From: an uncultured Clostridia bacterium
GTDB lineage: Bacteria; Bacillota; Clostridia; Christensenellales; UBA1242
DNA: 48,959 nt
Assembly: GCA_930990975.1 (NCBI GenBank)
Contig: CAKNRR010000010.1
Span: forward strand, 1-48,959
Reading direction: 5' to 3'
The notes beneath the pieces are model-generated. The model was not told the DNA's origin. It made no database searches and saw nothing but the letters and a program-made list of their open reading frames with translations. Below, piece after piece: positions 1 through 13,575 of this stretch (position 1 is the stretch's first letter; every line of letters starts with the position of its first letter). The position numbers were made by a program, and so were the translations under genes.

Positions 1-176
1 TTACAACATATAACTCAGTTGATAAAAGTTATTTCCAAAAAGCAACTGATGTTATTAACAATCAATACAATAATAAAAATACAGATAAAAATAATGACAT
101 AAAACAAGAAATAGACGAAGATGAACTAGAAGAATATCTACAATGGAAAAAGAAACAAAAAGATTTTGAAATGTAA
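1..176 (+). CDS. Tyrosine recombinase/integrase, C-terminal fragment (cut by window edge)
   Basis: Codons start at base 3 and the stop is TAA at 174-176, leaving 57 residues. The fragment begins TTYNSVDKSYF, which carries the catalytic tyrosine of tyrosine recombinases. It matches the complete integrase at 9638-10969 almost residue for residue in that part, then diverges in a lysine- and glutamate-rich linker, and ends in the same KKKQKDFEM tail. It would catalyse excision and integration of the element to the left. The gene is truncated only by the window edge, so nothing suggests it is broken. Its 3' end faces the tRNA-Ile remnant at 379-424, the same relation seen for the other two integrases of the window. 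Confidence 0.9.
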   Translation, partial: TTYNSVDKSYFQKATDVINNQYNNKNTDKNNDIKQEIDEDELEEYLQWKKKQKDFEM

Positions 177-343: not shown

Positions 344-355
344 AAATAAAAAATG

Positions 356-374
356 AGAGCAAATTTTGCTCTCA
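356..374 (-). terminator. Terminator belonging to the displaced tRNA-Ile 3' half
   Basis: GAGAGCAAATTTTGCTCTC is a perfect 19-base palindrome. On the minus strand it lies a few bases after the CCA end at 379 and is followed by a T-rich run, as expected for the native terminator of the tRNA that once ended there. Its presence supports the view that the 379-424 fragment was the end of a real tRNA transcription unit. Confidence 0.65.
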
Positions 375-378
375 AATC

Positions 379-424
379 TGGTAGAGATGAGTGGACTCGA
401 ACCACCGACCCCCACCTTATCAGG
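379..424 (-). pseudogene. tRNA-Ile 3' half, separated from its 5' half by the element
   Basis: Read on the minus strand this is the anticodon loop end, anticodon 3' strand, variable loop, T-arm and acceptor strand CATCTCT followed by A and CCA. No 5' half lies next to it: identity to tRNA stops at the anticodon loop (CTTATCAGG, 416-424). The acceptor strand pairs 7/7 with AGAGATG, the 5' acceptor strand of the broken tRNA-Ile halves at 13303 and 13405. It does not pair fully with the intact tRNA-Ile at 13126-13202. Joining it to either broken half gives a 77-base tRNA with all stems closed. It is therefore best read as the displaced 3' half of the original target gene. Confidence 0.85.
388..424 (-). 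repeat. 37-base direct repeat shared with the intact tRNA-Ile (left copy)
   Basis: Identical to 13135-13171. It covers the T-arm, variable loop and anticodon 3' strand of tRNA-Ile. It could be read as attL/attR of the element, but the acceptor strands just outside it differ, so part of the identity may only reflect homologous tRNA genes. Confidence 0.8.
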
Positions 425-648
425 AAAAGTCTTTTTAAGTGTGGGTGGAACACCTACTACCTTTTGACCTTTGTTTACGAGAATTTTAGCACAACAAAAT
501 TTCTTTTTGCAACAAAACAAGCGCAATTTACTGTTGCAGTTTGTTGCAAATATGCTTATTTTTGATATTTTCTTCGCTTTAAACCTGCCTTGTCTTTTTA
601 TGAACTTTTTAAATCTTTTATATTTAATCAATACTAATGTTAAATGAC
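425..648. other. Left end of the element, non-coding
   Basis: No plausible gene. It begins at the tRNA core and contains the paired TGTTGCA repeat at 530-554 and several GCAACAAAA motifs nearby. It ends in front of the helicase promoter. Short open frames here only translate the tRNA remnant and repeats. Confidence 0.6.
530..554 (+). repeat. Paired TGTTGCA arm repeat, left end of element
   Basis: Twenty-five bases starting ACTGTTGCA and ending GTTGCAAATATG match 12926-12950 at 22 of 25 positions in the same orientation. One copy lies at each end of the element. They are likely integrase arm-binding sites (inference). Confidence 0.6.
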
Positions 649-677
649 TTGCGAAAAAATGAGATATATGATATCAT
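649..677 (+). promoter_or_regulatory. Promoter of the helicase operon with palindrome over the -10
   Basis: TTGCGA (649-654), 17-base spacer, TATCAT (672-677). The perfect 10-base palindrome ATGATATCAT at 668-677 covers the -10 and could be a repressor site. Start codon at 710 follows a strong AAAGGAGG. Confidence 0.5.
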
Positions 678-709
678 TATTTTGATTAAATAGTTTTAAA
701 GGAGGACTG

Positions 710-3700
710 ATGCTGTTTTACTGTTATGGGAAAAAGGTCGAAATAGATGAAAATACTATATTGGACAACTATCTTTTTAAAAAAATACATGAAGCCCTAT
801 TGTATAACAAAGAATTGATACCTGGTCGTAATGGTATTCCAAAAGGCTTACAATTTATAGTTGATGATACTCAATATCGTGCCTATTTTGAATCCGACAA
901 AGCCCAGAAGAATTCTTCTCCTTTTGAGATAATAGATGAAAAAGATTTAAATTTTGATGTTGTCTATGCAAATACCCTTTTTATACATTTTGATGACGAT
1001 GAATTTAAAGATAAATATATTGCTTGCAAATTGAGTAAACAATGCTTATTAAATAATTATACTTTTCAAAACAAAAATAACATGACTTCAATTAATAGCA
1101 ACGAAATTGATTGTTGTTTGATTGATGTTGCAATAGACAATCAATCTAATGAAAATAAACTTGGAAAATATTATCAATACTTTGAAATACTTTTAAAAAA
1201 ACTTGAAAGTAAAAAAGAAGAAACTCGATTTGAATTAAATCTTGATTTGCTAAAAAAAGAATACTCTTTATTTAATGATATTGTTGTTGATGATAAGTCT
1301 ATGCTTCTCCCTATAAAAGGCGGGTTTTCATTTATTAAAGAAGTTGTTGTTGAATATACAACCAATGATGAGCATCAAGAACATTTCAATCTTCAAATTG
1401 CTCATATTAAGAATGAAGATAAAACATATAGGAAAAAATTACTTGATGAGAAAGTTGTCATTGACAAACAAACCACAATTTATGAGTTATGCGATTTGGA
1501 TGAACAGGAAAAAGAAAAAATAGAATGGCTCATCAAAGATGACAAAACAGAAAAAGTTTTTATTGCCGAAGATTTAAAAGGTGAGATAACAAGAGTAAGA
1601 CGAATTTTAAATGCCATAACAAAAATAAATTCAGGGAATGTGCAAAATTTAAGATTGGTAGACACAATTTGCAATAATTCTATAGACTATTTCGATTACG
1701 ATTTTGATGTTAAAGATGAAATTTTAGTTGAAATTGCTGACAAATATCCTGTTTTCAAAAAAAATAAAGAACAATTAATTGCGACTGCGAAAGTGCTTGA
1801 TATGGATAAGCACAATATTGATGTTATGTTAATTCAAGGACCGCCAGGAACAGGAAAGACCGAATTAATCACTGCGTTAATTAAGGAACTTTCTCATAAG
1901 GGCAAAGGCATCCTAGTTTCTTCAAATGTCCATGTTGCCTGCGACAATATTATTGAAAGAATTAAAGGTGATAAAGAGATTGTCGTTAAAAGATATAAAA
2001 ATCTTAAAGAAACGGACAAATTTAAAAACGAAAAGTTAGTAAACCAACAAAATTATATTAAACAGCAAGTTTTTGATAAATATCAATTAAATGGGAATGC
2101 TGTCTATGATTTAGATGGTTTAAAAAAGTTGGAAGAAATTAGGCTAGAGAAAGAAAACATTTTAAAGGAAACAAGCGAAAAATATAGCTCACTTATAAGT
2201 GAGGAAAATGAATTTTCCTATTTCATCCACCAATTAGAAGAGTTAGATAAAAACACAAATGAAAAGAAAAAAGAAATTGAAGCAAACCAAGAAGAAAAGC
2301 ATATTTTGCAAGATGAGATAGAGATAATAAATAAAGATTTATCCGAGATAAATGATGAACTTATAGATATTAGAGAAGAAACCAAGAAAAAATCAAAGGA
2401 ACACACAAATTTAAGTAAGGAATTAAACACCTTTAAGAAAAAATCCAATGAAGTAGGAAAAGAAATTTCTCAATTAGAAGATGATATATCTTCGTTGCAA
2501 AAAAAGATTGATGCCAGCAAAGATTTCATAATAAAAATTGATGAGAGTGTTTTGGAAATTGAAAACAGAATAGAGGAATTAGAATCTATTGATATTGCTG
2601 CTTTACAAAACGAAATAAAAAATAATTTTATTAATTTAACCTTAATTGACACAAACTATAAATGTTTTGAAGATGACATTAAACAAATCAATGATTTAAT
2701 TTCACTTGTTGCGGTGTTAAACAATAGGAACTTATATCTTGAAGATATTCCACAAAAATTACTTTCAAACGATTTTAAAAATTGTAGTTTTTTAAATAAA
2801 ATTTTTGAAGATTTACAAATTTTAAACAAATACTATAAAAGCGACACAACTTCAAAGATATTATCAATTTTTAAAATGAAATCAAATGGAAACAATATTT
2901 CGTATTGGGAGTATAGAAACTCAAAAAGAAATGTCATTGATTTTATAAACTATATTTTATATTATAGAAGCAAAATTTTTAACGATATTATTGAAAAAGG
3001 AATAAATAAAGACAAGATACAAAAACTAATTGAGAAAGAAAGAAGCAATAAAAATAGGAAAGCTTTTGATAAAGAAAATTCCGAGCAAGAAATTTCATCT
3101 TTTAAACAATCCATATCACAAAAAGAAGATGTTTTGAGAGATAAAAATGTTATTTATCAAAAACTACAAAGTGATATTGAAAACTTGGAAACGAAAGTTA
3201 CAAATCTTAAACTTGAACTTGATGAGTTGATTGATGATGAAAAAAAATTGAAAGCCGACTTAAAAGATGCTAAAAATAAATTACTTACAAAAAATAAATT
3301 ATTGAAAAATAACGATACAAGTTATAATGCATTAGAAAAAGATTTTTCTAAATTATTAGAAAACACACATTCACTTGAAAAGATAATTGATGAACTATCT
3401 AATAATGAAGAGTTTACAAAATTTAAAAATGAAATAGATAATTGCAATAAACTTCGCAATGTTTTATCTATTGAGATAGAACAACTTAACAATCAAATAG
3501 AATTTTTAAATTATTGCCATACATCTCTAACGAAAGTTAATGACAATACTATTTTATTCGACTATATTAAAGAACTTCAAGATTTATCAAAATACAAAAC
3601 TGAAGATTTAAGTAAATATTTAGAAGGTTGCGGAAATCTTTTTGATATAGAATTTAATGTGGGCGGTGCTGATAAAAATGGTTCGATTTTGTCTATGACA

Positions 3701-4708
3701 ACCAACCAAGTGGCACAAGTGTATAATAGAGATATGACCTTTGATTATGCGATTATTGATGAAGCAAGTAAATGTAGTTTGCAAGATTTATTGGTCTGCT
3801 TGCCTATTGCAAATCATTTAGTTTTAATTGGTGACTATATGCAACTTGACCCTATTTATGATGAATATAAAGATTTAGATGATGACTCCAAAAAGGTATT
3901 CTATAATTGTGAACATTTTTGGGATGAATTAAACAAATCTGCGTTCAGTATTTTACTTACAAAAGCAATTGAAAAAAATTATAAAAACAGATTATCATCC
4001 TTTTATATTTGCAGAAATGTTGCTGTCATGAAAAGACAGTATCGAATGAATAAAGGTATATTTGATTTAATCAGTCCTGTATATAAGATACATCGTGGCT
4101 TTGAACTTATAGATGAGAAAAACACAAAATCTAATGATGTGTTATGCTTAAACATCCCTGGGGAAGAAACCCTTGTTCAAATTGGAGATAGGCCAACCTA
4201 TAAAAACAGATACGAAGCAAACTATATCAAAGAGACAATCGATTATATAAGAAAAAACTATAATAAACTCGACATCAAAACAATAGGAATTATAACGGGT
4301 TATAGCGGACAAGTGCAAGAACTTAACAGAATCTTAAATAAGTTAACAAAACAGGATATAAAGATTGAAATTGGAACCTTTGACAGATTCCAAGGAAAAG
4401 AATTTGATTTGGTGCTTGTGAGTTTAGTTAGGACTGAAAAGTTAGGATTTTTAAATGATGTTAGAAGGATGAATGTGGCATTTTCTCGTGCAAAAAAACA
4501 TCTTATCATATTTGGGAATATAAACGATATAGTGAAAAATTGCATGACAATAAAAAAAGATAGTGTTGACTTAACTCCAGCGGAAAAAGAGCATAGATAT
4601 GTAAATGATGAATTACTACCAAAATTAATTGAATTATCTGCTTATAATGATTGTTTATCAGTGAATGAAGCCATATTAAAGATTAAGAAAATGTTGGAGG
4701 TAAACTAG
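710..4708 (+). CDS. Giant SF1 (Upf1/Dna2-like) helicase with coiled-coil insertion, candidate defence protein
   Basis: A 1332-residue protein with all superfamily 1B helicase motifs: Walker A GPPGTGKT at 377-384, Walker B IIDEAS near 1015-1020, GDYMQLDP from 1041, QYRMN from 1110, GTFDRFQGKEFD near 1222, and NVAFSRAK from 1255. Between motif Ia and Walker B lies about 500 residues of lysine- and glutamate-rich coiled coil, far longer than normal insertions, giving an SMC-like shape. The first 370 residues match no domain I recognise. It should be an ATP-driven nucleic acid translocase. It is read straight into the next gene with no gap, so the two products probably work together. Its place in a mobilizable element, unrelated to transfer genes, suggests anti-phage cargo. 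Mokosh-type defence also uses an Upf1-like helicase, but the partner here lacks a phospholipase D motif. Start chosen by AAAGGAGG seven bases upstream. Confidence 0.8.
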   Translation: MLFYCYGKKVEIDENTILDNYLFKKIHEALLYNKELIPGRNGIPKGLQFIVDDTQYRAYFESDKAQKNSSPFEIIDEKDLNFDVVYANTLFIHFDDDEFKDKYIACKLSKQCLLNNYTFQNKNNMTSINSNEIDCCLIDVAIDNQSNENKLGKYYQYFEILLKKLESKKEETRFELNLDLLKKEYSLFNDIVVDDKSMLLPIKGGFSFIKEVVVEYTTNDEHQEHFNLQIAHIKNEDKTYRKKLLDEKVVIDKQTTIYELCDLDEQEKEKIEWLIKDDKTEKVFIAEDLKGEITRVRRILNAITKINSGNVQNLRLVDTICNNSIDYFDYDFDVKDEILVEIADKYPVFKKNKEQLIATAKVLDMDKHNIDVMLIQGPPGTGKTELITALIKELSHKGKGILVSSNVHVACDNIIERIKGDKEIVVKRYKNLKETDKFKNEKLVNQQNYIKQQVFDKYQLNGNAVYDLDGLKKLEEIRLEKENILKETSEKYSSLISEENEFSYFIHQLEELDKNTNEKKKEIEANQEEKHILQDEIEIINKDLSEINDELIDIREETKKKSKEHTNLSKELNTFKKKSNEVGKEISQLEDDISSLQKKIDASKDFIIKIDESVLEIENRIEELESIDIAALQNEIKNNFINLTLIDTNYKCFEDDIKQINDLISLVAVLNNRNLYLEDIPQKLLSNDFKNCSFLNKIFEDLQILNKYYKSDTTSKILSIFKMKSNGNNISYWEYRNSKRNVIDFINYILYYRSKIFNDIIEKGINKDKIQKLIEKERSNKNRKAFDKENSEQEISSFKQSISQKEDVLRDKNVIYQKLQSDIENLETKVTNLKLELDELIDDEKKLKADLKDAKNKLLTKNKLLKNNDTSYNALEKDFSKLLENTHSLEKIIDELSNNEEFTKFKNEIDNCNKLRNVLSIEIEQLNNQIEFLNYCHTSLTKVNDNTILFDYIKELQDLSKYKTEDLSKYLEGCGNLFDIEFNVGGADKNGSILSMTTNQVAQVYNRDMTFDYAIIDEASKCSLQDLLVCLPIANHLVLIGDYMQLDPIYDEYKDLDDDSKKVFYNCEHFWDELNKSAFSILLTKAIEKNYKNRLSSFYICRNVAVMKRQYRMNKGIFDLISPVYKIHRGFELIDEKNTKSNDVLCLNIPGEETLVQIGDRPTYKNRYEANYIKETIDYIRKNYNKLDIKTIGIITGYSGQVQELNRILNKLTKQDIKIEIGTFDRFQGKEFDLVLVSLVRTEKLGFLNDVRRMNVAFSRAKKHLIIFGNINDIVKNCMTIKKDSVDLTPAEKEHRYVNDELLPKLIELSAYNDCLSVNEAILKIKKMLEVN

Positions 4709-6253
4709 ATGAATTTGGTTAGGTATAGTAAGATAATAAAAATTCCTATCACTCTCTATCTGCTAAACATTAAAAACACTTCCATTTTAAGATATGAAAA
4801 CTTGCGTTTCTATGAGAAGTATATTGTTTTGGCGCTTAAAAGTGGCTTTCAAGCAAAAGATTTGGAAGATTTAAAACAAGAGTTATCAAAAATCTTTAAT
4901 ATTAAATTTTCTTTTGTGGATGAGTTTATAGAACACTATAACAAGATAGGCTTTATTGACTACGATAAAGAGAAATCGGTATTTTCATTAAATGACTCCT
5001 ATCGACTTGAATATGATAAAAAAAATAAATCCATAATGCGCTCCTGCACAAAGAAAAGTTCGTTTGATTTTATTGATATAGTTTATGTTAAAAACATAAA
5101 CACTTTCTTTTCAAGTGAAAATTTTAAAGATTTCTTAAAAGATTTGAATGAGAAAAAAGAGATTGAAGATAAGTCATTGTTTATCAAAATGTGTAAATCA
5201 AATGAGCAATTGAAGGAATTGCTTGAAAATATCTTGGCGGGCTCTTCGATACGTGCTATCATGGATGATAACCAATTAAAAAATTGTGAAATAGAAGTTT
5301 TTGAAGTTTCAATCAACATAGATTGTTTATTAAATTATGCCTACGATGGACAAGTGTCAAATTTACAAAATTTTTTAATCTCAAAATCTATGCCTCAAGT
5401 AGAAGTAAAAAATTTTCTTGATGAGATAATAAAGTCGCATTTCCAAACCGACTTAGTTATTCCTAAATATGTTAAAGAGCATGAAGTATATTCTAGAATA
5501 AATGAAACAAACAGAATAATCTCAAAACATGAAGAAGAAATCTTCAAAAATAAAGAAGAGATACTTGCAAAGGAAAACATTTTAAATTCTTACACAAATA
5601 AGGAAAATTTGAAGAAAAAGGAGAAAAATAAACTTAAAAAATTAAATGAAGAATTAGATAGTCTAAAAGAAAAAATAGTTAAACTCGAACAAGAAAACGT
5701 TAAATTAACTAATACGCAAGAAAGATATAGTTTTTTTGATAGTATGACTGAAATTGTTTATAATAAATATTCTAACAACAACTATTTTGACTATATGGTC
5801 AGACAAATTTGTGTTGTTACCGATAAATCAATTGAAGCATTATCAATTGGAGATAATGAAAATATCGTACTTGATTTAGCAAGCATAAGAAGTTGGATAA
5901 ATAAACTGGGTTATGCAATATTTAATTATTTTTTTGTAGAACCGAAACCTATAAATTTTTCCACATATTTCTACGATAAATTCAAGCGAATAAAATTAGA
6001 AGAAATATTTGCCAAATCTAAATTAAATTCTTATGATTTTTCTAATATGGAAATATGCCATAAACTTATCGACTCTTGCTATCACCATGGAGAGAATAAC
6101 AACAAGACAAAATTAAATCAAAACAATATAAATGAGTTTCTTGCATATCCCCAACAGAAAAGGAGAGATGTTTTATTGAGTTTTATTAAATTATATGGCG
6201 CTATTGATTTGACCGAAGAACAAAAGAAAGAGATTTTGCAGAAAATGAATTAA
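4709..6253 (+). CDS. Unknown partner of the helicase: winged-helix-like N terminus and coiled coil
   Basis: 514 residues, not recognised as a known family. Residues about 25-95 look like a winged helix: regular helices, then a KIGFIDYDKEKSVFSLN beta wing. Residues about 265-350 are strongly coiled coil. The C-terminal part is globular and contains HKLIDSCYHHGENN near residue 450. No HxKxxxxD, Walker or PD-(D/E)xK signature is clear. The ATG directly follows the helicase TAG, with GGAGG inside the end of the helicase gene, so translation is coupled. Both proteins carry coiled coils and could dock through them. A reasonable guess is sensor or effector of a two-gene defence system, but no catalytic residue supports either role. 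Confidence 0.65.
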   Translation: MNLVRYSKIIKIPITLYLLNIKNTSILRYENLRFYEKYIVLALKSGFQAKDLEDLKQELSKIFNIKFSFVDEFIEHYNKIGFIDYDKEKSVFSLNDSYRLEYDKKNKSIMRSCTKKSSFDFIDIVYVKNINTFFSSENFKDFLKDLNEKKEIEDKSLFIKMCKSNEQLKELLENILAGSSIRAIMDDNQLKNCEIEVFEVSINIDCLLNYAYDGQVSNLQNFLISKSMPQVEVKNFLDEIIKSHFQTDLVIPKYVKEHEVYSRINETNRIISKHEEEIFKNKEEILAKENILNSYTNKENLKKKEKNKLKKLNEELDSLKEKIVKLEQENVKLTNTQERYSFFDSMTEIVYNKYSNNNYFDYMVRQICVVTDKSIEALSIGDNENIVLDLASIRSWINKLGYAIFNYFFVEPKPINFSTYFYDKFKRIKLEEIFAKSKLNSYDFSNMEICHKLIDSCYHHGENNNKTKLNQNNINEFLAYPQQKRRDVLLSFIKLYGAIDLTEEQKKEILQKMN

Positions 6254-6259
6254 TTTGCT

Positions 6260-6288
6260 TTGACAAATTAAATTAAATATGATATATT
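6260..6288 (+). promoter_or_regulatory. Consensus promoter of the small structured RNA
   Basis: TTGACA (6260-6265), exactly 17 bases, TATATT (6283-6288). No reading frame follows; the transcript would begin near 6295 and run into the hairpin at 6324-6384. Confidence 0.75.
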
Positions 6289-6294
6289 AAAAAT

Positions 6295-6390
6295 ACAACT
6301 TAATATTTGAAATTAACTGAGCGAGCCTAAGAGCACCGAAATTCGATACACCACCAGTTTGTATCACTATCGGATTCTTGGGCTTTTTTA
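6295..6390 (+). ncRNA. Small structured RNA with three stacked stems and a terminator tail
   Basis: A 9-bp outer stem (AGCCTAAGA 6324-6332 with TCTTGGGCT 6376-6384), a CCGA/TCGG middle stem (starting at 6336 and 6370) and a top hairpin GATACA 6345-6350 with TGTATC 6360-6365 closing on loop CCACCAGTT. The outer stem is followed by TTTTTT, so the structure ends in its own terminator. It has a consensus promoter and no open frame. It sits between the helicase pair and the mobilization operon, where an antisense or trans-acting control RNA, or an RNA component of the defence pair, would fit. The structure is seen; the function is unknown. Confidence 0.65.
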
Positions 6391-6391
6391 G

Positions 6392-6411
6392 TTAGACAAA
6401 ATTAGACAAAT
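6392..6411 (+). repeat. Tandem 10-base direct repeat before the mobilization promoter
   Basis: TTAGACAAAA followed directly by TTAGACAAAT. It is next to the terminator of the small RNA and 14 bases before the promoter inverted repeat. It is a possible binding site for the regulator encoded at 6489. Confidence 0.4.
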
Positions 6412-6424
6412 ATTGGTTTTGTTT

Positions 6425-6472
6425 GTGTTGGTAAGTAATTTATATATGTTAAAATAAATTAAACACCAACAC
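6425..6472 (+). promoter_or_regulatory. Promoter/operator of the mobilization operon
   Basis: Inverted repeat GTGTTGGT (6425-6432) and ACCAACAC (6465-6472) encloses a promoter: TTGGTA 6428-6433, 16-base spacer, TAAAAT 6450-6455. One arm covers the -35 and the other lies just after the expected start site. That geometry is typical of repressor looping or occlusion. The repressor is not identified. Confidence 0.5.
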
Positions 6473-6488
6473 TCTAAAAGGAGTGAAA

Positions 6489-7250
6489 ATGGAAGAAAAA
6501 TTTTATGTGGATATAAAAGATGACTATGGCAAAGTGCGAACATTTGAAGTACCTACTCTTGAAATGAAGATTGCAATAGATAACATAGACAAAGAACTTA
6601 AAAAGAGTTATAAGCACGATGCACTTAAAAATGCCATTCCTTTTTCTGTCTTCCCAAATGAGGACTATATTTCTCGTTTTGTAAATAATGATAATAAACT
6701 TATTTCTTTCTTTGAAATCGAAAGGTATAAATTAAATAAAGCTCTTTGGCAAGTTGTCAAAAATATGACAAACAAAAAATATAAAAAGATTTTGTATATG
6801 CGTTTTAAAAATAAAATGAAATTTAATAAGATTGCCGAAAAACTTGGTTGTTCCAAACAAAGCATTTCTGATAACTACAAAACGGCCATTGATGATTTAA
6901 GAGTTTTACTTTGTGAAGATAAGACTTTTCGAAATACATACTATTTCAAACAATTTAGGCATAGTTTAAAAGTCAACACAAATCTTATAGGAAAAGAAAA
7001 ATTGAGAGAATTTGATAAAACTAAAAACTTTTTAGGATTGACTTCCATTGAAAATATGATTGAAGTGTTTGATTTAATTAAAAACACACAAAAGAAAGAA
7101 AACAAATTAAACAAACAAGAAAATATCAAAAATGCATTTAAAAAGCAAAAATTTTCAAGCTTTGGCAAAACATATTCTGTGCAAGATATTTTTGACATTG
7201 TTGGTGAATTTTTGAAGCCTTTTAGAGAAAATAAAGAAAAAATTGAATAA
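6489..7250 (+). CDS. Sigma-70 region 4-like HTH regulator of the mobile element
   Basis: 253 residues from the ATG at 6489, six bases after AAGGAG; the in-frame GTG at 6483 would sit on the ribosome site. Residues about 95-140 form a sigma region 4 type helix-turn-helix, with KKILYMRFKNKMKFNKIAEK followed by LGCSKQSISDNY as recognition helix. Regions 1 to 3 of a true sigma factor are absent, so it is not a full sigma factor. Related small proteins are common at the head of mobilization operons of Firmicute elements, where they control transfer and excision genes. It is likely to act on its own promoter inverted repeat and on the mobilization genes downstream. The C-terminal third is lysine-rich and unassigned. 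Confidence 0.65.
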   Translation: MEEKFYVDIKDDYGKVRTFEVPTLEMKIAIDNIDKELKKSYKHDALKNAIPFSVFPNEDYISRFVNNDNKLISFFEIERYKLNKALWQVVKNMTNKKYKKILYMRFKNKMKFNKIAEKLGCSKQSISDNYKTAIDDLRVLLCEDKTFRNTYYFKQFRHSLKVNTNLIGKEKLREFDKTKNFLGLTSIENMIEVFDLIKNTQKKENKLNKQENIKNAFKKQKFSSFGKTYSVQDIFDIVGEFLKPFRENKEKIE

Positions 7251-7262
7251 ATTTATAAAAAC

Positions 7263-7362
7263 TTTGCGATTTACCCCTGACTTTTGCCTAATTTTTCTAT
7301 ATAAGTGAGGGGCTATTGCAAAAACAAGCAAAGAACTGTTATCCGCCGACAGTTCTTTTTTT
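7263..7362 (+). other. Nested inverted repeats with a terminator: candidate oriT or attenuator
   Basis: CCCCT 7274-7278 pairs with AGGGG 7308-7312, with TTTGC/GCAAA outside them. A strong hairpin AAGAACTGT 7331-7339 with ACAGTTCTT 7349-7357 followed by seven or more T comes next. It lies between the regulator and the mobilization genes, where an origin of transfer or a transcription attenuator would be placed. No nick site can be named from sequence alone. Confidence 0.45.
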
Positions 7363-7454
7363 GTTGAGAAAATTAAGAGGAGGTGAAAATCATTGCCCCT
7401 TTAATTTGAAATAGAAAGAGATATAGAAAGGCTTAAAAATTATTGGGAGGTTTT

Positions 7455-7913
7455 ATGGCAAGAATAAAAACAAAAGATTTAAAGAATTGTTATTTGTTTC
7501 GGGTGTATGATGAAGAAGAAAACAAGGTTTTTGAAAGAGCAATTAAAATGTTTGCAGATAAGTTTGACAGCAAAAGTGATATGGTAAAGTATTTTGCTTT
7601 GGTTGGTGCGGATAAACTGCTTGGAGATAATGTTATAAATCAAAGTATAAACTTTTCAGAAATTAAAAAATATCTACAAAGCATAGATGAGAAACTTGCA
7701 AATATTGTGGGTAGGCAAAAAATGGACTATATTCAAACAAATGCTGAGATTAAAACTAATCAATCTCTTTTGCATTTGATAACTAAAATACTAAACAAGA
7801 TTAGCAATATCAATATACACAACTATACTAACGATTGGAAATATACTCCACTTGACGAGTATGGACTTGAAGAAGAAAAACAAAATCATTTGCGAGAGTT
7901 GCTAAATGAATAG
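7455..7913 (+). CDS. Probable mobilization accessory protein (relaxosome component)
   Basis: 152 residues from the ATG at 7455, after GGGAGG at 7445-7450; the in-frame TTG at 7443 overlaps the ribosome site. The first 70 residues, with a beta start NCYLFRVYDEEENKVF then a helix pair, suggest a small ribbon-helix-helix-like DNA-binding fold. The middle is a predicted coiled coil. The stop overlaps the start of the relaxase by eight bases, so the two are translated together. This is the usual position for MobC-type accessory proteins, which bind oriT and help the relaxase. The assignment rests on position and size more than on similarity. Confidence 0.5.
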   Translation: MARIKTKDLKNCYLFRVYDEEENKVFERAIKMFADKFDSKSDMVKYFALVGADKLLGDNVINQSINFSEIKKYLQSIDEKLANIVGRQKMDYIQTNAEIKTNQSLLHLITKILNKISNINIHNYTNDWKYTPLDEYGLEEEKQNHLRELLNE

Positions 7914-9102
7914 TGTTCCTAATGTTGTGTATATGCAAGAGTTTTTTCTACCCCACTACAAAGATAAGAAAATGCAAGATAAACGAGATTACTATTCTTC
8001 AAACAAATACAGTGATTATCTCAAATATATTGCAACTGGTATTAAAGATTTGCAAAAACTTGATTTTATCGAGTATTCAAATAACAATTCTAAGTCATCT
8101 GGAATATTTAATCAAAATGGCAAGATGAAAAGCGAAGATATTGCAAAAGTGCGGAAAGATTTAAGAAAAACAAAGTCGGTTATTTGGAGCGGTGTTATAT
8201 CTTTTGAAGAAAAGTTTGGCAAGAAGTGGTGTGCAAATTTTGAACAAGCATACAATCTTGTAAAAAATGAACTGCCTAAATATTTTAAGCGTGCAGGACT
8301 TAATCCTAACAATGTTGAATGGTTTGCAGGACTTCACGAAAACACAGATAACAGGCATATTCATATAGTCTTTTTTGAAAAAGAACCTTTGCGAATTAGG
8401 GACAATAAAAAAGGTTTTTCTCGTGGGCGAATATCATCAAAGGCAATGGACGAGTTTAAGGCAAATATTGAACTTTCAGCCACCGATTATAAAGCACGAG
8501 AGATAAAGTTAAGGACTGACTTAACAAAGAGTTTTAAAGAAGAAATAAGCGAGATTTCAGGACTTAAATTAAAGAATATGCTAATAAGTCTTGCAAATCA
8601 AATTCCACAAAACAAGCCCACTTTTTACAACTCCGAAAGTATGCAAAATTTAAAATCACAGGTTGATAATATTTCAAATTATATCATTAAGCACAATTCA
8701 AATATATCACTTTACAAGCAAGATTTTGATGAGTTGGTAAAAGAAAAAGATGAGCTTGTGAATAATTATTGCAGGCGTAATGGGTATGACAAACCTATTC
8801 AAAGTGTTGGAGATAAAATGATGAATGATGTTTATCGAAGGCTTGGCAATATTGTTATTGAAAGCGCTAAAAATTTAAAACTTAAAGAGAACGAAAGATT
8901 GAAATTGAATGCAAAGAATTTGGTGGAAAAACGCATTCAAAAAACCAAGTTAATGAAGGAACTTGACGAGTGTTTATACCTTAATTCAAAGGTTGAATAC
9001 GAAACTATTAAAGCATTTCAAGACTATATGAATACACTTGAAGAAATGAGAATTAAAACACTGATTGAGCAAGGATATTTAAGTAGTGATTTTGAAATGT
9101 AA
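7906..9102 (+). CDS. mobL: MobL-type (MobP) relaxase
   Basis: 398 residues. The metal-binding relaxase motif is clear: LHENTDNRHIHIVFFEKEP around residues 143-161, a HxNTDNxHxH signature. An N-terminal Tyr-rich segment ending in TGIKDL and SGIFNQNG resembles the catalytic region of MobL proteins. The remaining C-terminal half is helical. The enzyme nicks one strand at oriT and pilots it into a recipient through a conjugation machine supplied by another element. No ATPase or secretion genes are present here. The protein ends SSDFEM, and the last 15 bases GATTTTGAAATGTAA are identical to the end of the left integrase gene, an odd similarity between unrelated families. Confidence 0.85.
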   Translation: MNSVPNVVYMQEFFLPHYKDKKMQDKRDYYSSNKYSDYLKYIATGIKDLQKLDFIEYSNNNSKSSGIFNQNGKMKSEDIAKVRKDLRKTKSVIWSGVISFEEKFGKKWCANFEQAYNLVKNELPKYFKRAGLNPNNVEWFAGLHENTDNRHIHIVFFEKEPLRIRDNKKGFSRGRISSKAMDEFKANIELSATDYKAREIKLRTDLTKSFKEEISEISGLKLKNMLISLANQIPQNKPTFYNSESMQNLKSQVDNISNYIIKHNSNISLYKQDFDELVKEKDELVNNYCRRNGYDKPIQSVGDKMMNDVYRRLGNIVIESAKNLKLKENERLKLNAKNLVEKRIQKTKLMKELDECLYLNSKVEYETIKAFQDYMNTLEEMRIKTLIEQGYLSSDFEM

Positions 9103-9138
9103 TATAGTTTTTATGGATATTTATGGTATAGAGCATAA

Positions 9139-9320
9139 GCGAGAAACAAAAATCATTTTAAGTGCTAAAAAGTGCCTAAATTAAGCATTTTTAACTGATA
9201 CACTTAAATTTTTTTGTTTTTCTCGTCATTTTGGGCTTTGCTGGGATACCCGGACGCCCTTTTAAATATAGAAAATTTGTTATTATGCAGAAAGAAGTAA
9301 GGCTACCATGCGTTCTTTCT
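9139..9320 (+). other. Structured intergenic region before excisionase: three inverted repeats
   Basis: First, an imperfect 26-base inverted repeat, 9139-9164 with 9201-9226 (GCGAGAAACAAAAA versus TTTTTGTTTTTCTCGT). Second, GGGC 9233-9236 with GCCC 9256-9259 enclosing CTGGG 9241-9245 and CCCGG 9249-9253, followed by TTTTA, a terminator-like hairpin. Third, AGAAAGAA 9289-9296 with TTCTTTCT 9313-9320. The gap has no credible gene; a 68-codon frame from 9231 only reads through these hairpins. The region separates relaxase from excisionase and could hold oriT or control integrase expression. Confidence 0.55.
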
Positions 9321-9387
9321 CAAAAATTTAGAATAGAGAGATTTTATAGATTTAGAAAAGAAAATTTTAATTTTTTGAGGAGACAAA

Positions 9388-9645
9388 ATGAACTATACAA
9401 ACTTAAATTTAAACGAACTAATACAAGCGGAAGTTGACCGAATTTCAACTAAATATAATAAAGATTTTTTAGACTGTGAGGACCTTATTAAAATCACAGG
9501 ACTTGGCAGAGATAATGTGAGAAATCTTATGCGAAGCAAAACCTTTCCAACAACAAAAGTCGGCAAAAGACAAGTTGTAAGTGTGCTTAATTTTGTCACT
9601 TGGCTAACACTCAACAACGCTCAAAGCGAGGTGAAAAATGGCTAA
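9388..9645 (+). CDS. xis: Excisionase-like small HTH protein
   Basis: 85 residues, start after GAGGAG. Residues about 25-75 form a MerR/Xis-type winged helix: FLDCEDLIKITGLGRDNVRN then MRSKTFPTTKVGKRQVV, the pattern of helix, recognition helix and wing. It overlaps the integrase start by eight bases, the normal relation for an excisionase. Such proteins bend the attachment DNA and turn the integrase toward excision. No cofactor or enzymatic residue is present. The two N-terminal helices before the motif are unusual in length but do not argue against the call. Confidence 0.8.
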   Translation: MNYTNLNLNELIQAEVDRISTKYNKDFLDCEDLIKITGLGRDNVRNLMRSKTFPTTKVGKRQVVSVLNFVTWLTLNNAQSEVKNG

Positions 9646-10969
9646 AAAGAAAATTGTAAGCAAAACAAGACGAGGCAACAACGAAGGGAGTATCTATCAA
9701 AGACAAGATGGACTTTGGGTTGGAATGGTGTCGCTTGGATATGATGATAATGGCAAACAAAAAAGAAAGGCAATTTATGGTAAAACAAGAATTGAAGTGA
9801 GTAAAAAACTTGCAGAACTAACCAACAGAATAAACAGCAACAACTATGAATATGTTTCTCAAAATACCCTATCTGTTTTGATGAAAGAATGGCTTATGGT
9901 GTTCAAAAAATCACAGGTAAGTCCACGCACTTTTGAAAATAATATTGCCAGATTTAAAAATCACATAGAACTTAAAATTGGTGGAATGAAATTAGATGAA
10001 ATTTCAACTCTAACAATTCAAAAAATGCTTAATGAAATGCTTGAACAAGATTTGAGTTTAGACTATGTGAAAAAGACGAAGTTTTTACTTGGTCAATTTT
10101 TTGAGTATGCAGTTGATAACAAATTTGTTTTGACAAATCCTGTGAACAAAGTGAAAGTTAAAAGTCAAGAACACAAGATTTATAGAAAGAACGAATACAA
10201 AGCAATTCCTGTTGATATTAGAAAGCAGTTTATTGAAAGTTTAAATGAACACACTTTTCTGAAACCATTTTGCTATGTGATGATGTTTGCAGGGCTACGC
10301 ACTGGCGAAGCACTTGCTCTTGAATGGCAAGACATAGATTTTAAGAACAAACTATTGAGAGTTGAAAGAGGTATGACAAATGTGCCAAAGTTTGACAACA
10401 ATGGAAAAGTTATCTCTCGTCAACTTGTCATCGGTGACACAAAGACAGTATGCTCTAAAAGAACAGTGCCTATGCCCGACATTCTGGTTGAAGCATTAAA
10501 GGAATATTTTACCAAACAAAAGCAAAAACAAGCGAAGTTTGGAATTTCTTTCACTGACGACGATTCCTTTGTGTTTTGTAATGATGAAGGAAATTTAAGA
10601 ACATATAGCGGAACAAAAAAGATTTTTTACACTTTCTTGAAAAGTCACAACTTGCAAAAATACCATATTCACTTTCACACTTTAAGGCACACTTTCTCTA
10701 ACACTCTTTTTGAAGCTGACCAAAACCCAAAAGTTATTCAATCTCTTCTCGGTCATAAAGATGTTAAAACAACAATCACAACCTACAACTCAGTTGATAA
10801 AAGTTATTTCAACAAAGCAACTGATGTTTTTAACGAAAAATATAAAGTGGAAGATGAAAAGCAAACAGATTTTGACAATTTAAGTGATGATGAACTTATG
10901 AAGCAAATGCGAGAACTTGAAAAACAAATTGCAAAAAGAAAGAAAAAACAAAAAGATTTTGAGATGTAA
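9638..10969 (+). CDS. int: Tyrosine recombinase/integrase of the element
   Basis: 443 residues with every catalytic residue: R221 in AGLRTGE, H347 and R350 in HTLRH, H373 in LLGHKD, and nucleophile Y383 in TTYNS. Residues 1-60 form the arm-binding domain typical of Tn916-type integrases (NNEGSIYQRQDGLW...), and 65-170 the SAM-like core-binding domain. A 60-residue charged tail ends KKKQKDFEM, shared with the integrase fragments at 1-176 and 48908-48959. It carries out site-specific recombination at the tRNA-Ile anticodon loop. The start overlaps the excisionase gene. Unlike the left element, another gene (11025-12923) lies between it and the attachment end. Confidence 0.95.
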   Translation: MAKKKIVSKTRRGNNEGSIYQRQDGLWVGMVSLGYDDNGKQKRKAIYGKTRIEVSKKLAELTNRINSNNYEYVSQNTLSVLMKEWLMVFKKSQVSPRTFENNIARFKNHIELKIGGMKLDEISTLTIQKMLNEMLEQDLSLDYVKKTKFLLGQFFEYAVDNKFVLTNPVNKVKVKSQEHKIYRKNEYKAIPVDIRKQFIESLNEHTFLKPFCYVMMFAGLRTGEALALEWQDIDFKNKLLRVERGMTNVPKFDNNGKVISRQLVIGDTKTVCSKRTVPMPDILVEALKEYFTKQKQKQAKFGISFTDDDSFVFCNDEGNLRTYSGTKKIFYTFLKSHNLQKYHIHFHTLRHTFSNTLFEADQNPKVIQSLLGHKDVKTTITTYNSVDKSYFNKATDVFNEKYKVEDEKQTDFDNLSDDELMKQMRELEKQIAKRKKKQKDFEM

Positions 10970-10980
10970 ATGTTTTATAA

Positions 10981-11009
10981 TTGAGATAATTATGATATTA
11001 TGCTATAAT
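10981..11009 (+). promoter_or_regulatory. Promoter of the HEPN-motif gene
   Basis: TTGAGA (10981-10986), 17 bases, TATAAT (11004-11009). The start codon is only 16 bases after the -10, with GAGG between, giving a very short leader. It makes the cargo gene independent of the integrase transcript. Confidence 0.75.
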
Positions 11010-11024
11010 AAAAATGAGGTTTAA

Positions 11025-12923
11025 ATGAGAATGATTAAATTTTGTGACATAGATGATTTTTCTTTTTATCATAATCTAAGTCAAGCAGAAGAAGTTTTAA
11101 AAAAGCTTGATTTGTCAAAAAGAAATTATAAAGTTAACGAGATTTTGGAATTTTACATTATTACTAAGTTTTCAAAAGTTAAAAATTGTAACCTAAAAAA
11201 TATGTATAAGAAAGAAATTGAATTTCTTTATAAGGAGATTAGTAGTTTTATAAAACAGTTAACTGATAAGTCATTTTATAAATATTATAGAAATGTAGAT
11301 AGTTTTTATTTAGCTACTTTTTGGGAAATGATAAATGATTATATAGATAATACAATGCTATCAAATTTATTTATTAATCAAGTTTTTTCTTATAAAAAAT
11401 TTTATATAAATTATTTTTTAAATTGCAAAAATTTAGTTAAAAAATATGAATTGGAACTTCGTAAGTTTTTACTAAAAAATCATACTACAGCTGAATTGCT
11501 TTTAGAAGAATATGAAATAGACAATATCCACCATAAAAAATTTTATTTCCCGAATTTCACAAATCTTGAAATAGAAAAGATATTCTATAATTATATAAAT
11601 AGCGACAATGCAAACATAAATTATTTGAAAATTATTCCATTTTTAAGTTGCAAAGAAATACAGATTTCGGACAATATTAAATTACAGGCATTAAAGAAGT
11701 CAAAAGAAAAAACTGCAGCATTTTTTTCGAATAATAATGGTATTGAATTTGGTAGCGAAATAAAAATTGGTGATTTTGATGAAACTATTAAAATAGATAA
11801 GAGAAACAATATAATAATATATAATTATGATAGTAAATGGATAAAAAAGAATTTAGACTATCCTACTTTATTAAATAACTTTATTTATCTCTTTTGTTTT
11901 GTAGATAGACAAATGAGATTCACAAATGTAAGTAAAATTAACAAAATGAGTATTTTTGAAAAAGAATTAGGACTTCATACGAAAAACGAATATAAAATAG
12001 ATTTAACTTTTCAGTTGACCCAATCTACAGCATTAATGCAAATGATTTCTTATAATACAGAACTAAAAACGTATAACATAGAAATTGAAAAATGTTTAGA
12101 TTGGTTTTATAAAACATATTTAAAAGAAGAATTTAAAATAGCTGATTTTATTACACATATAGAAAGCTCACCTGAAAATTATTTTGAAAAGTGTAGAGTT
12201 TTATTCCCAGAAATTGATGGTATAATAAAGCAATTTGCAATATATCAAGAATATAGGGAAATAGATCATGATTTGATAGAAATTTCGAATAATTCTATAT
12301 TGTTTGAAAATGTAAAATCTCTCAACAAGCACAAATATGTTTATGGAAATGAAAAAAAATTAAATTTTCTAAATTACCTAATATTTTCAGACCAAAGCAG
12401 ATTAAGATATTTAAAAGGATACGAAAAACATAATTCCTTTTATGAGTTAATAAGAAAAGAAAATGTTAAATTAAAAGATTTTAATGATTATCAAAAAAGT
12501 GACTTACACTGGCTCTATGAGAATAAAATTATAAAACGAGATAGAAAAGGTAACATAAAATTTTACGACATTAGAGAAGTAATTATTTATTATGATCTTT
12601 ATTTTAATGAAGTAATAAGTTTTTATCATTATCCTACTGAATATCAAAAGCTAATACTAAAATTGGCAAAAAAAGGAAACCTTTTTCTAAAAAACACTTT
12701 ATTTTCAGAACCAGAAACAAAATATCTTAATTTTTATTTAAATAATAGGTCCGCTTCAAATAGTTTATCGCTGAGAAATCGATATGGACATGGAATTCAA
12801 CCGAGAGAAGATAATGAGGAAATTCACAAACAAAATTATATGTATCTATTATATATAATTGTATTGATAACAATAAAAATCAATGATGACTTATGTATTT
12901 TTGCTGAAAATAGTAAAATTTAG
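11025..12923 (+). CDS. HEPN-motif protein, candidate abortive-infection RNase
   Basis: 632 residues, mostly helical, very low GC even for this window. Close to the C terminus lies LRNRYGHG, giving R584-N585-x-x-x-H589. This matches the HEPN ribonuclease motif RN(x)3H within Rx4-6H, followed by the usual glycine. HEPN domains near the C terminus of long helical proteins are common in Abi-type toxins that cleave RNA after infection. The gene has its own consensus promoter and terminator and sits between the integrase and the attachment end, a slot empty in the left element, so it is recent cargo. The N-terminal 550 residues show no domain I can name. RNase activity is inference from the motif. 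Confidence 0.65.
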   Translation: MRMIKFCDIDDFSFYHNLSQAEEVLKKLDLSKRNYKVNEILEFYIITKFSKVKNCNLKNMYKKEIEFLYKEISSFIKQLTDKSFYKYYRNVDSFYLATFWEMINDYIDNTMLSNLFINQVFSYKKFYINYFLNCKNLVKKYELELRKFLLKNHTTAELLLEEYEIDNIHHKKFYFPNFTNLEIEKIFYNYINSDNANINYLKIIPFLSCKEIQISDNIKLQALKKSKEKTAAFFSNNNGIEFGSEIKIGDFDETIKIDKRNNIIIYNYDSKWIKKNLDYPTLLNNFIYLFCFVDRQMRFTNVSKINKMSIFEKELGLHTKNEYKIDLTFQLTQSTALMQMISYNTELKTYNIEIEKCLDWFYKTYLKEEFKIADFITHIESSPENYFEKCRVLFPEIDGIIKQFAIYQEYREIDHDLIEISNNSILFENVKSLNKHKYVYGNEKKLNFLNYLIFSDQSRLRYLKGYEKHNSFYELIRKENVKLKDFNDYQKSDLHWLYENKIIKRDRKGNIKFYDIREVIIYYDLYFNEVISFYHYPTEYQKLILKLAKKGNLFLKNTLFSEPETKYLNFYLNNRSASNSLSLRNRYGHGIQPREDNEEIHKQNYMYLLYIIVLITIKINDDLCIFAENSKI

Positions 12924-12925
12924 TC

Positions 12926-12950
12926 ACTGTTGCAAATTGTTGCAAATGTG
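12926..12950 (+). repeat. Paired TGTTGCA arm repeat, right end of element
   Basis: ACTGTTGCA and TTGTTGCAAATGTG; 22 of 25 bases match 530-554. It lies directly after the stop codon of the HEPN-motif gene. Confidence 0.6.
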
Positions 12951-12952
12951 AA

Positions 12953-12971
12953 AGTTTTAGGCAGTTTTAGA
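12953..12971 (+). repeat. Shared 19-base element-end sequence, right copy
   Basis: Identical to 205-223 of the left element, three bases after the arm repeat, as it is there. This conservation at non-coding ends supports a shared integrase specificity. Confidence 0.6.
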
Positions 12972-12979
12972 AAGAATTT

Positions 12980-13016
12980 GACCGAAAGTTATGAGTTTTA
13001 ACTTTTGGTCATTTTT
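12980..13016 (+). terminator. Terminator of the HEPN-motif gene
   Basis: GACCGAAAGTTA (12980-12991) pairs with TAACTTTTGGTC (12999-13010), with one G-T pair, followed by ATTTTTT. Confidence 0.8.
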
Positions 13017-13097
13017 TATGCCTATTTTAATGATAAAAAACATTTGCTACAAATTTTGGGTATATTTGCAACAAAAAATTAGTTATAAAATCATAAT

Positions 13098-13122
13098 AAA
13101 AACCCCGATATTATCGGGGTTT
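13098..13122 (-). terminator. Terminator of the intact tRNA-Ile
   Basis: AAAACCCCGATA pairs with TATCGGGGTTTT with almost no loop, four bases after the tRNA 3' end on the minus strand. It is symmetrical, so it can also stop transcription from the element. Confidence 0.85.
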
Positions 13123-13125
13123 TAG

Positions 13126-13202
13126 TGGTAGGATTGAGTGGACTCGAACCACCGACCCCCACCTTATCAGGGTGGTGCTCTAACCGACTGAGCTACAATC
13201 CT
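13126..13202 (-). tRNA. tRNA-Ile(GAT), intact
   Basis: 77 bases including encoded CCA. The acceptor stem AGGATTG/CAATCCT pairs 7/7; the D-stem is GCTC/GAGC; anticodon stem CCACC/GGTGG encloses loop CTGATAA with anticodon GAT; the T-arm has the standard TTCGAGT loop. It is the third tRNA-Ile 5' half in a row on one transcript that starts from the promoter at 13447-13475. Its acceptor differs from the two broken upstream halves, which suggests it arrived with the element rather than being the original gene. Confidence 0.97.
13135..13171 (-). repeat. 37-base direct repeat shared with the displaced tRNA half (right copy)
   Basis: Identical to 388-424; lies within the intact tRNA-Ile and covers its 3' half without the acceptor strand. 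Confidence 0.8.
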
Positions 13203-13217
13203 ATATTAAATTTTTCT

Positions 13218-13303
13218 CGGAATGAGTGGAGTCGAACCACTGTCTCCAAACCCTAAATTTTTTCTTATCAGGGTGGTGCTCTAACCGGCTGAGCTACATC
13301 TCT
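13218..13303 (-). pseudogene. Broken tRNA-Ile: intact 5' half, unrelated middle, degenerate 3' half
   Basis: The 5' half (AGAGATG acceptor, D-arm, anticodon GAT) is perfect to the anticodon loop at 13264-13272. Then come about 20 AT-rich bases absent from tRNA. A T-arm with TTCGACT loop is retained, but the acceptor strand CATTCCG fails to pair at several places and there is no CCA. It looks like a target cut at the anticodon loop, with a decayed 3' half copy joined on. Its cognate 3' half is at 379-424. Confidence 0.85.
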
Positions 13304-13362
13304 ATATGGTTTGTTTTAACGAGTTTAGCAACTCTCGTTGGCGTGCTCAAAGTGGTCAAATT

Positions 13363-13405
13363 CACCTTATCAGGGTGGTGCTCTAACCTGCTGAGCTACA
13401 TCTCT
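13363..13405 (-). pseudogene. Broken tRNA-Ile 5' half nearest the promoter
   Basis: Perfect 5' half: AGAGATG acceptor, D-arm with GCTC/GAGC and CTGATAA anticodon loop, then CACCTTATCAGG (plus strand, 13363-13374) and abrupt divergence. The following bases contain no T-arm; a small AACGAG/CTCGTT hairpin follows. It is the first tRNA sequence after the promoter, so it is probably the oldest, native copy. Confidence 0.85.
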
Positions 13406-13446
13406 ATATATATGTACAATACATTCTTAATCAATATTGCATTTAA

Positions 13447-13475
13447 ATTATACTTAATAATATTTCTTTTGTCAA
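13447..13475 (-). promoter_or_regulatory. Consensus promoter of the tRNA-Ile array
   Basis: On the minus strand TTGACA (13470-13475), 17 bases, TATAAT (13447-13452). The transcript would start near 13440 and pass through two broken halves before reaching the intact tRNA-Ile and its terminator. Confidence 0.85.
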
Positions 13476-13575
13476 CAATTTTTTTGAAATTTATGTAATT
13501 ATTTAATTAATTTAAGTCAAAATATAAATGGTTATAAAATTTTATAATCGTTTAGAATTGTTGTTAGGAGAGTTT

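Follow-up and report, generated by a model that had tools for sequence, protein, structure and literature searches.

tRNA-Ile(GAT) pieces and the nested elements of the window

The stretch of DNA analysed here (the window; contig C10, positions 1-48959) belongs to a 1.41-Mb genome of an uncultured Clostridia bacterium assembled in 18 contigs, and close to its start a 12.8-kb integrated element, element B, lies between the pieces of genes for the isoleucine transfer RNA with anticodon GAT, tRNA-Ile(GAT). Read on the minus strand from the resident promoter, the order is a broken 5' half beginning at 13405, a further one at 13303 and the intact tRNA-Ile(GAT) at 13202-13126, with a solitary 3' half at 423-379 on the far side of the element (Table 1). 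A prior interpretation made from the letters alone (the sequence-only reading) had placed all of these pieces where we find them. Both broken 5' halves leave the tRNA sequence at the same place, after the anticodon loop, one passing into spacer A and the other into spacer B. Their acceptor strand AGAGATG pairs with CATCTCT of the far 3' half at 7/7 positions, whereas AGGATTG of the intact tRNA forms only 4 Watson-Crick pairs and one G-U pair with it, again as the sequence-only reading held. The promoter it had proposed also bears scrutiny: it was the only promoter-like site in a search of 13020-13560, which leaves the spacers without one, and exact matches to all 12 consensus positions number 3 in the whole window against 0.03 expected. 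Rfam yields 32 tRNA matches in the genome, 4 in the window and 28 elsewhere, the latter resolving with ARAGORN into 26 genes, none of them tRNA-Ile, and 2 incomplete genes where contigs end. The copy at 13126-13202 is thus the only intact tRNA-Ile(GAT) seen in the assembly.

Table 1. Features of the tRNA-Ile(GAT) locus and of elements A and B, in window coordinates
Feature	Position	Strand	Evidence or remark
Resident promoter, TTGACA-17-TATAAT	13447..13475	-	12/12 sigma-70 consensus positions; upstream of the entire array
Chromosomal tRNA-Ile stump (5' half, AGAGATG...), through core CCTGATAAG	13366..13405	-	Sequence; motif in 88/112 genus genomes
Spacer A, brought by outer element A	13304..13365	-	Same spacer in other genomes
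5' half (AGAGATG...) of outer element A's tRNA-Ile, cut by element B	13264..13303	-	7/7 pairing with 3' half at 379
Spacer B, right end of element B	13203..13263	-	Weak tRNA-like 3' half, 40 bits jointly with 5' half; spacer type recurs in other genomes
Complete replacement tRNA-Ile(GAT), AGGATTG...CAATCCT, on element B	13126..13202	-	ARAGORN; Rfam 72 bits
Terminator of replacement tRNA	13099..13123	-	Sequence
Element B, 12.8 kb	425..13263	.	Bordered by two copies of CCTGATAAG, 416-424 and 13264-13272
Tyrosine integrase of element B	9638..10969	+	Pfam Phage_integrase 3e-29, SAM-like domains
Small open reading frame before integrase, excisionase-like by position only	9388..9645	+	No family match; homologues 77-93% identical adjoin relatives' integrases
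MobL relaxase	7906..9102	+	Pfam MobL 6.6e-29
3' half of outer element A's tRNA, ...CATCTCTACCA, plus left junction of element B (core 416-424)	379..424	-	Sequence
Terminator of element A's tRNA	348..378	-	Hairpin and T-run; shared with complete tRNAs in L093, L108, L112
C-terminal 57 residues and stop codon of outer element A integrase	3..176	+	Cut by contig start

The core common to the two junctions of element B is 9 bp long, and its centre is the 7-bp anticodon loop. Besides the integrase and relaxase, the element encodes helicase-like and sigma-like proteins and a candidate defence protein. No conjugation-channel gene was recognised among 8 open reading frames (ORFs) scanned with Pfam and NCBIfam, in a scan that was not exhaustive and that left 3 of the 8, as well as the 632-residue ORF described below, without a Pfam match. 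The same 8 ORFs held no phage structural gene, which tells against element B being a temperate phage. With an integrase, a relaxase and no recognised conjugation machinery, element B is predicted to be an integrative mobilizable element. The candidate defence gene (11025-12923) lies between the integrase and the replacement tRNA, and its 632-residue product matches the PADLOC candidate defence family PDC-S56 (E 7.4e-180). A helicase-like protein of 1332 residues (710-4708) has AAA_11/AAA_12 domains and partial matches to MkoA defence models, and its gene adjoins an ORF of 514 residues without a Pfam match. Short repeats, TTGTTGCAAA / GCAACAAA, stand near both ends of the element at 509, 541, 12937 and 13068 and are possible arm-type integrase sites.

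The very start of the window records a further insertion. The product of 3-173 is 46% identical to the last 63 residues (381-443) of the element B integrase and ends as do the proteins at L093 and L108; across this integrase family the gene order is spacer, tRNA, terminator and then an oppositely oriented integrase gene. On account of this C-terminus and the family gene order, we read window positions 379-1 as the right end of an outer element, element A. The tRNA that element B entered, now divided between 13303 and 379, would on this sequence evidence be element A's own, with element A in turn inserted in the chromosomal tRNA, so that two insertions are nested and the chromosome's own tRNA survives only as the stump at 13405. 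This revises the sequence-only reading in two respects. It had implied a single insertion for both 5' halves, which the second integrase C-terminus replaces with two successive ones. It had further proposed that the resident AGAGATG tRNA was cut and that a tRNA on the element substitutes for it; the cut at the anticodon loop and the complete tRNA standing in both hold, whereas the tRNA that was cut belonged to element A.

Matching halves, empty sites and stacked copies in the genus

We examined the locus across a genus set of 112 genomes, this one included. Fifteen of these have stacked copies together with a separate far 3' half (13 tabulated, with G027 and G061 added by reading), the displaced 3' halves lying 7-17 kb off behind an integrase element. 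When the outermost copy is used as the host 5' half, it pairs with the far 3' half at all 7 positions in 15/15 genomes; random permutation gave a mean of 4.9 and reached 15 in 0/200,000 trials. Both halves lie on one contig in 8 of the 13 tabulated genomes, and all 8 are fully paired (permutation p 0.00056). In contrast, the 5' half that the element itself brings forms a complete 7-position stem with the far 3' half in only 2/13, namely G016, where the stems are identical, and G005, with one G-U pair.

Relatives also preserve sites at which the tRNA is whole. In G077 a single uninterrupted AGAGATG...CATCTCT tRNA has both of its flanks matched in G074, on either side of an insert that carries a TGGCTTG tRNA: the upstream flank aligns over 1414 bp at 75% and ends just past the anticodon loop, the 3' half is equal at 47/47 bases, and a downstream block of 1223 bp at 74% lies about 0.5 kb farther from the tRNA in G077. 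No family integrase occurs in the 3.5 kb of G077 examined. Likewise, the AGAGGTG...CATCTCT tRNA of G099 is uninterrupted in G100, with 822 bp aligned upstream at 70%, 105 bp at 91% downstream around the 3' half and terminator only, and no family integrase in 10 kb of G100. In a comparison of 9 occupied sites with single-copy loci, both flanks were found in one relative only for G074 and, more weakly, G099, the remaining sites giving one flank or short matches. No empty site with the flanks of the present genome was found, and with the neighbouring FAD oxidoreductase as a guide none of the 29 relatives' loci scanned carries a tRNA-Ile. The empty site anticipated by the sequence-only reading, an uninterrupted tRNA joining the stump's 5' part to the far 3' part, hence exists in relatives (G077/G074 and G100/G099), none having been found with this genome's own flanks.

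The 5'-half pattern is present in 88/112 genomes, and 38/112 have at least two copies close together on one contig. We examined 73 arrays judged distinct by script, 42 single and 31 multiple, which do not cover all 38 stacked genomes. None of the 41 upstream copies in the 31 multi-copy arrays retains a 3' half; every one stops at the anticodon loop. Spacing between copies is 90 bp (4 cases), 100 (9), 101 (17), 102 (10) or 269 (1). The last copy has a fully paired 7/7 acceptor stem in 61 of the 63 readable cases, 10 more being cut or unreadable by a strict pattern. Acceptor stems are mixed within arrays, AGAGATG, AGGATTG, TGGCTTG, TGGGATG and AGTCGCG among others. The recurrence of this arrangement across the genus, together with the complete stem formed by host and far halves in 15/15 genomes, argues that it is more than chance.

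The spacers themselves form a graded series. Scored jointly with the 5' half against the tRNA model at 12 loci (gathering score 29), the bit scores are 49-53 for type C spacers, 39-42 for type B, 36 for one further type, 30-33 for type D and 24-27 for type A; no match to the tRNA model came from the units of L034, L106 and the two tRNA-Thr loci tested. The series fits the decay of a 3' half that may once have restored the target, following acquisition of a whole tRNA, with the direction not proven.

Two further features of these loci were observed. A second kind of broken tRNA-Ile copy, in which a short GC-rich hairpin-like insert ending in AAGGTGG splits the anticodon arm, occurs at L155 (3243-3406), L161 (5715-5880) and L306 (upstream of 2836, reverse strand), and split anticodon-stem repeats similar to these follow the terminators of several tRNA-Ile genes. 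The motif AG(A/T)TGNTAAA with a short variable stem stands just upstream of tRNA-Ile in L031, L034, L045, L195 and L196; it is found in element spacers and stump-less sites alike and is perhaps a leader captured with the tRNA.

A second target, other integrases and known systems

An integrase-alignment scan of named genomes recovered at least 456 relatives, some overlapping with the genus-search genomes. Among the best 80 loci, which by record titles are mostly from Clostridia with some from Christensenella, Caccopulliclostridium and Onthoplasma, 51 have, no more than 4 kb downstream of the integrase and in the opposite orientation, an intact tRNA-Ile(GAT) (20) or tRNA-Thr(GGT) (31), and 29 have none. 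In 26 of these 51 (11 Ile, 15 Thr) the intact tRNA is preceded by extra 5' halves, frequently at intervals of about 100 bp. The tRNA-Thr loci of 13 genomes gave 23 pattern matches, 6 of them displaced 3' halves behind foreign sequence; a stump with a fitting acceptor stem was found for those of G119 and G116 and one in G112, and no such stump was seen for the other one in G112 or for the two in G115. In the tRNA-Ile and tRNA-Thr sets alike the carried tRNA has the anticodon of the one that was cut.

The integrase of the G074 element (L096, 1554-8324) differs from the family, with 30% identity over 186 residues; this smaller element, of a second type, encodes a protein matching PF00910 (RNA_helicase), and its complete tRNA-Ile follows a 269-bp unit. 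Its different integrase indicates that the replacement strategy is not tied to one integrase. Insertions at the same tRNA in G007 and G096 resemble ordinary islands, having one 5' half and no integrases but distant ones. Viral contigs contributed 12 loci with integrases of 20-44% identity. An integrase tree (37 of 40 rows, 3 dropped as short) groups 16 tRNA-Ile integrases with support 92/98, below the star limit; as the stub and single labels are partly uncertain (L093, L102, L108), we argue no gains or losses from it.

An element-borne tRNA that replaces a broken host tRNA has an experimental precedent in the tRNA-dependent lysogeny described for actinobacteriophages (Guerrero-Bustamante and Hatfull 2024, PMC10865867). 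The likeness, on that description, lies in a tyrosine integrase, an attB site in a tRNA gene and a short shared core (8-17 bp for the dependent phages). Correspondingly, the present locus has a Phage_integrase domain, a split tRNA and empty sites in relatives, as well as the 9-bp CCTGATAAG and 0/41 stumps with a 3' half, the tRNA not being rebuilt at the junction. The elements described there are temperate phages, whereas element B has a MobL relaxase. The phage tRNA of Fionnbharth is described as overlapping another phage gene and having its own tested promoter, whereas here the tRNA sits about 60 bp inside the junction and no promoter was seen. Unlike the actinobacteriophage tRNA as described, the carried tRNA is here also the next attachment site. 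The requirement for the carried tRNA was demonstrated for the phages in that work; here it is a prediction, the carried tRNA being the single intact tRNA-Ile(GAT) of the assembly.

With Islander-type tRNA islands, as described in PMC4383910, the locus shares a tyrosine integrase, an anticodon-loop crossover and a displaced 3' half at the far end. In those islands the tRNA fragment of attP restores the target, whereas here a complete tRNA with its own 5' half stands behind a dead one, the stump at 13303 being followed by spacer B. Judging from the filters described there, an Islander-like search would probably read these loci as ordinary islands with the wrong end point. Element B also resembles integrative mobilizable elements with MobL relaxases in combining integrase and relaxase with no conjugation-channel gene recognised among its 8 scanned ORFs. 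Our searches of open-licence literature listed no integrative mobilizable or conjugative element with a replacement tRNA; the tycheposons (PMC10872708) are tRNA-flanked elements for which that account, as far as it goes, describes no replacement tRNA. The sequence-only reading had regarded the supply of a whole tRNA as an unusual strategy: it does set these elements apart from islands restoring the 3' part, though the actinobacteriophages anticipate it. What appears to be new is that the element is mobilizable and not a phage, that its tRNA adjoins the junction and is served by the resident promoter, that later insertions enter the carried tRNA, and that the arrangement has spread through a genus.

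Proposed mechanism and competing explanations

We consider the best explanation as a whole, at a probability of roughly 0.9, to be that the element breaks tRNA-Ile(GAT), brings a complete replacement and offers that replacement as the next target. The cut tRNAs, their matching halves, the complete carried tRNA, the nesting and the relatives' empty sites can be read directly in the assemblies. The integrative mobilizable element would recombine its 9-bp core CCTGATAAG with the anticodon loop of the tRNA-Ile(GAT) gene, parting the 5' half from the 3' half at a junction that would not rebuild the tRNA. Just inside its right end it would bring in a whole tRNA-Ile that has the anticodon of the cut one and a terminator of its own. 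As this tRNA is followed by a terminator, and the resident promoter is the only promoter-like site in 13020-13560, it is most likely read through the stumps: transcription starting at the resident promoter would cross the 5' stump and then the spacer before reaching the new tRNA. The new tRNA would then take over, its 5' end presumably being released by RNase P. The exact crossover, the read-through transcription, the processing of the precursor, excision and the cell's dependence on the carried tRNA are parts that we infer. For attachment the conserved anticodon stem-loop would suffice; the host tRNA may have a different acceptor stem. Because that loop is present again in the incoming tRNA, a later element can use it as a landing site; insertions become nested and leave their 5' halves as a ladder with steps of about 100 bp. 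Here, element B would have entered the tRNA of element A, and element A the chromosomal tRNA. When the ends of element B are joined, TTTTC and GAAAA would stand on either side of CCTGATAAG as an inverted repeat like those of integrase core sites, and the anticodon loop and stem of tRNAs are described as resembling such a site (PMC8371274).

The most familiar alternative, that an element entered the AGGATTG tRNA in the ordinary way and restored its 3' half, the acceptor mismatch with the far 3' half arising later, draws on the stretch CTGATAAGG...CCACTCA that occurs in both the far 3' half and the intact tRNA, a feature of ordinary islands (cf. the description in PMC4383910), on the distant-integrase insertions at this tRNA in G007 and G096, and on the 25 stump-less loci among the 51 family loci of the best 80. 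It leaves unexplained why the stumps share one cutting point to the base, and why a far 3' half should fit the stump in 15/15 genomes while fitting the element's own 5' half in only 2/13; the empty sites, too, match the stump and already disfavour it, so that we judge it improbable. Still further down the scale we place a decayed tandem cluster of tRNA-Ile genes whose upstream copies have nothing to do with the elements: the period of about 100 bp is near that of a tRNA with its intergenic spacer, and weak tRNA-like 3' halves (29.7-52.8 bits) persist in spacers of types B and C and in others, but 41/41 upstream copies end at the anticodon loop, the displaced 3' halves sit 7-17 kb off behind an integrase element, and the stump-less relatives have one uninterrupted tRNA, which already told against a cluster. 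Misjoining of the roughly 40-bp repeats in metagenome assemblies is equally hard to credit. Many contigs do end inside the array, and G016, G034 and G061 look inconsistent; yet stacking recurs in 38/112 genomes and in named records of different projects, with spacers matching the elements, and several cases lie whole on one contig. Finally, the tRNA might be carried chiefly to supply codons or to withstand a defence that cuts tRNAs, in which case its location next to the junction would be secondary. Such roles are suggested for phage tRNAs in the discussion of PMC10865867, and element B has its candidate defence gene (PDC-S56); against this, the carried anticodon equals that of the cut tRNA whether the set is tRNA-Ile or tRNA-Thr, and 13020-13560 shows no promoter belonging to the carried tRNA. 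As the primary reason we think it unlikely, but it is compatible with replacement rather than opposed to it.

Several observations count against the replacement-and-nesting explanation itself. All of the evidence comes from assembled genomes, most of them from metagenomes. A search of the assembly allowing up to 3 mismatches did not recover the 3' half of the chromosomal tRNA, and in the pairing set G000 is an exception to the use of the outermost copy, the half entered by element B having been taken there. The last tRNA-Ile has a mismatched acceptor stem in G034 (3/7; L058 / L108) and G061 (5/7; L123), which could be products of contraction, recombination or misassembly, and two contigs of G016 are inconsistent with one array, a disagreement that the same three processes could explain. 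In several arrays, for example that of G017, stumps outnumber the elements seen, which requires past loss of elements. The 25 family loci without an extra 5' half imply that contraction or ordinary restoration also occurs, or that stumps have decayed.

If replacement and nesting operate as proposed, the strategy known from actinobacteriophages extends to mobilizable elements of Clostridia. By keeping its tRNA beside the junction, an element would be able to break an essential gene, place a substitute on the host promoter and become the next target itself. The origin of such systems from ordinary ones is a question left open in the discussion of PMC10865867, and the spacer series, which runs from a tRNA-like 3' half (49-53 bits) to nothing recognisable, bears on it. 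The arrangement also provides a search rule for cases that databases of islands may hide: an intact tRNA with a 5' fragment some 100 bp upstream, together with a displaced 3' fragment whose acceptor stem fits the 5' fragment and not the intact tRNA. On balance we lean towards a broader view, in which tRNA-Ile(GAT) in this genus and tRNA-Thr(GGT) in its relatives would be owned by mobile elements in many lineages, each arrival retiring the prior copy, installing its own under the resident promoter and renewing the landing site. The ladder of stumps would then be a record of successive invasions, in the course of which the acceptor stem of an essential tRNA may have been replaced horizontally again and again.

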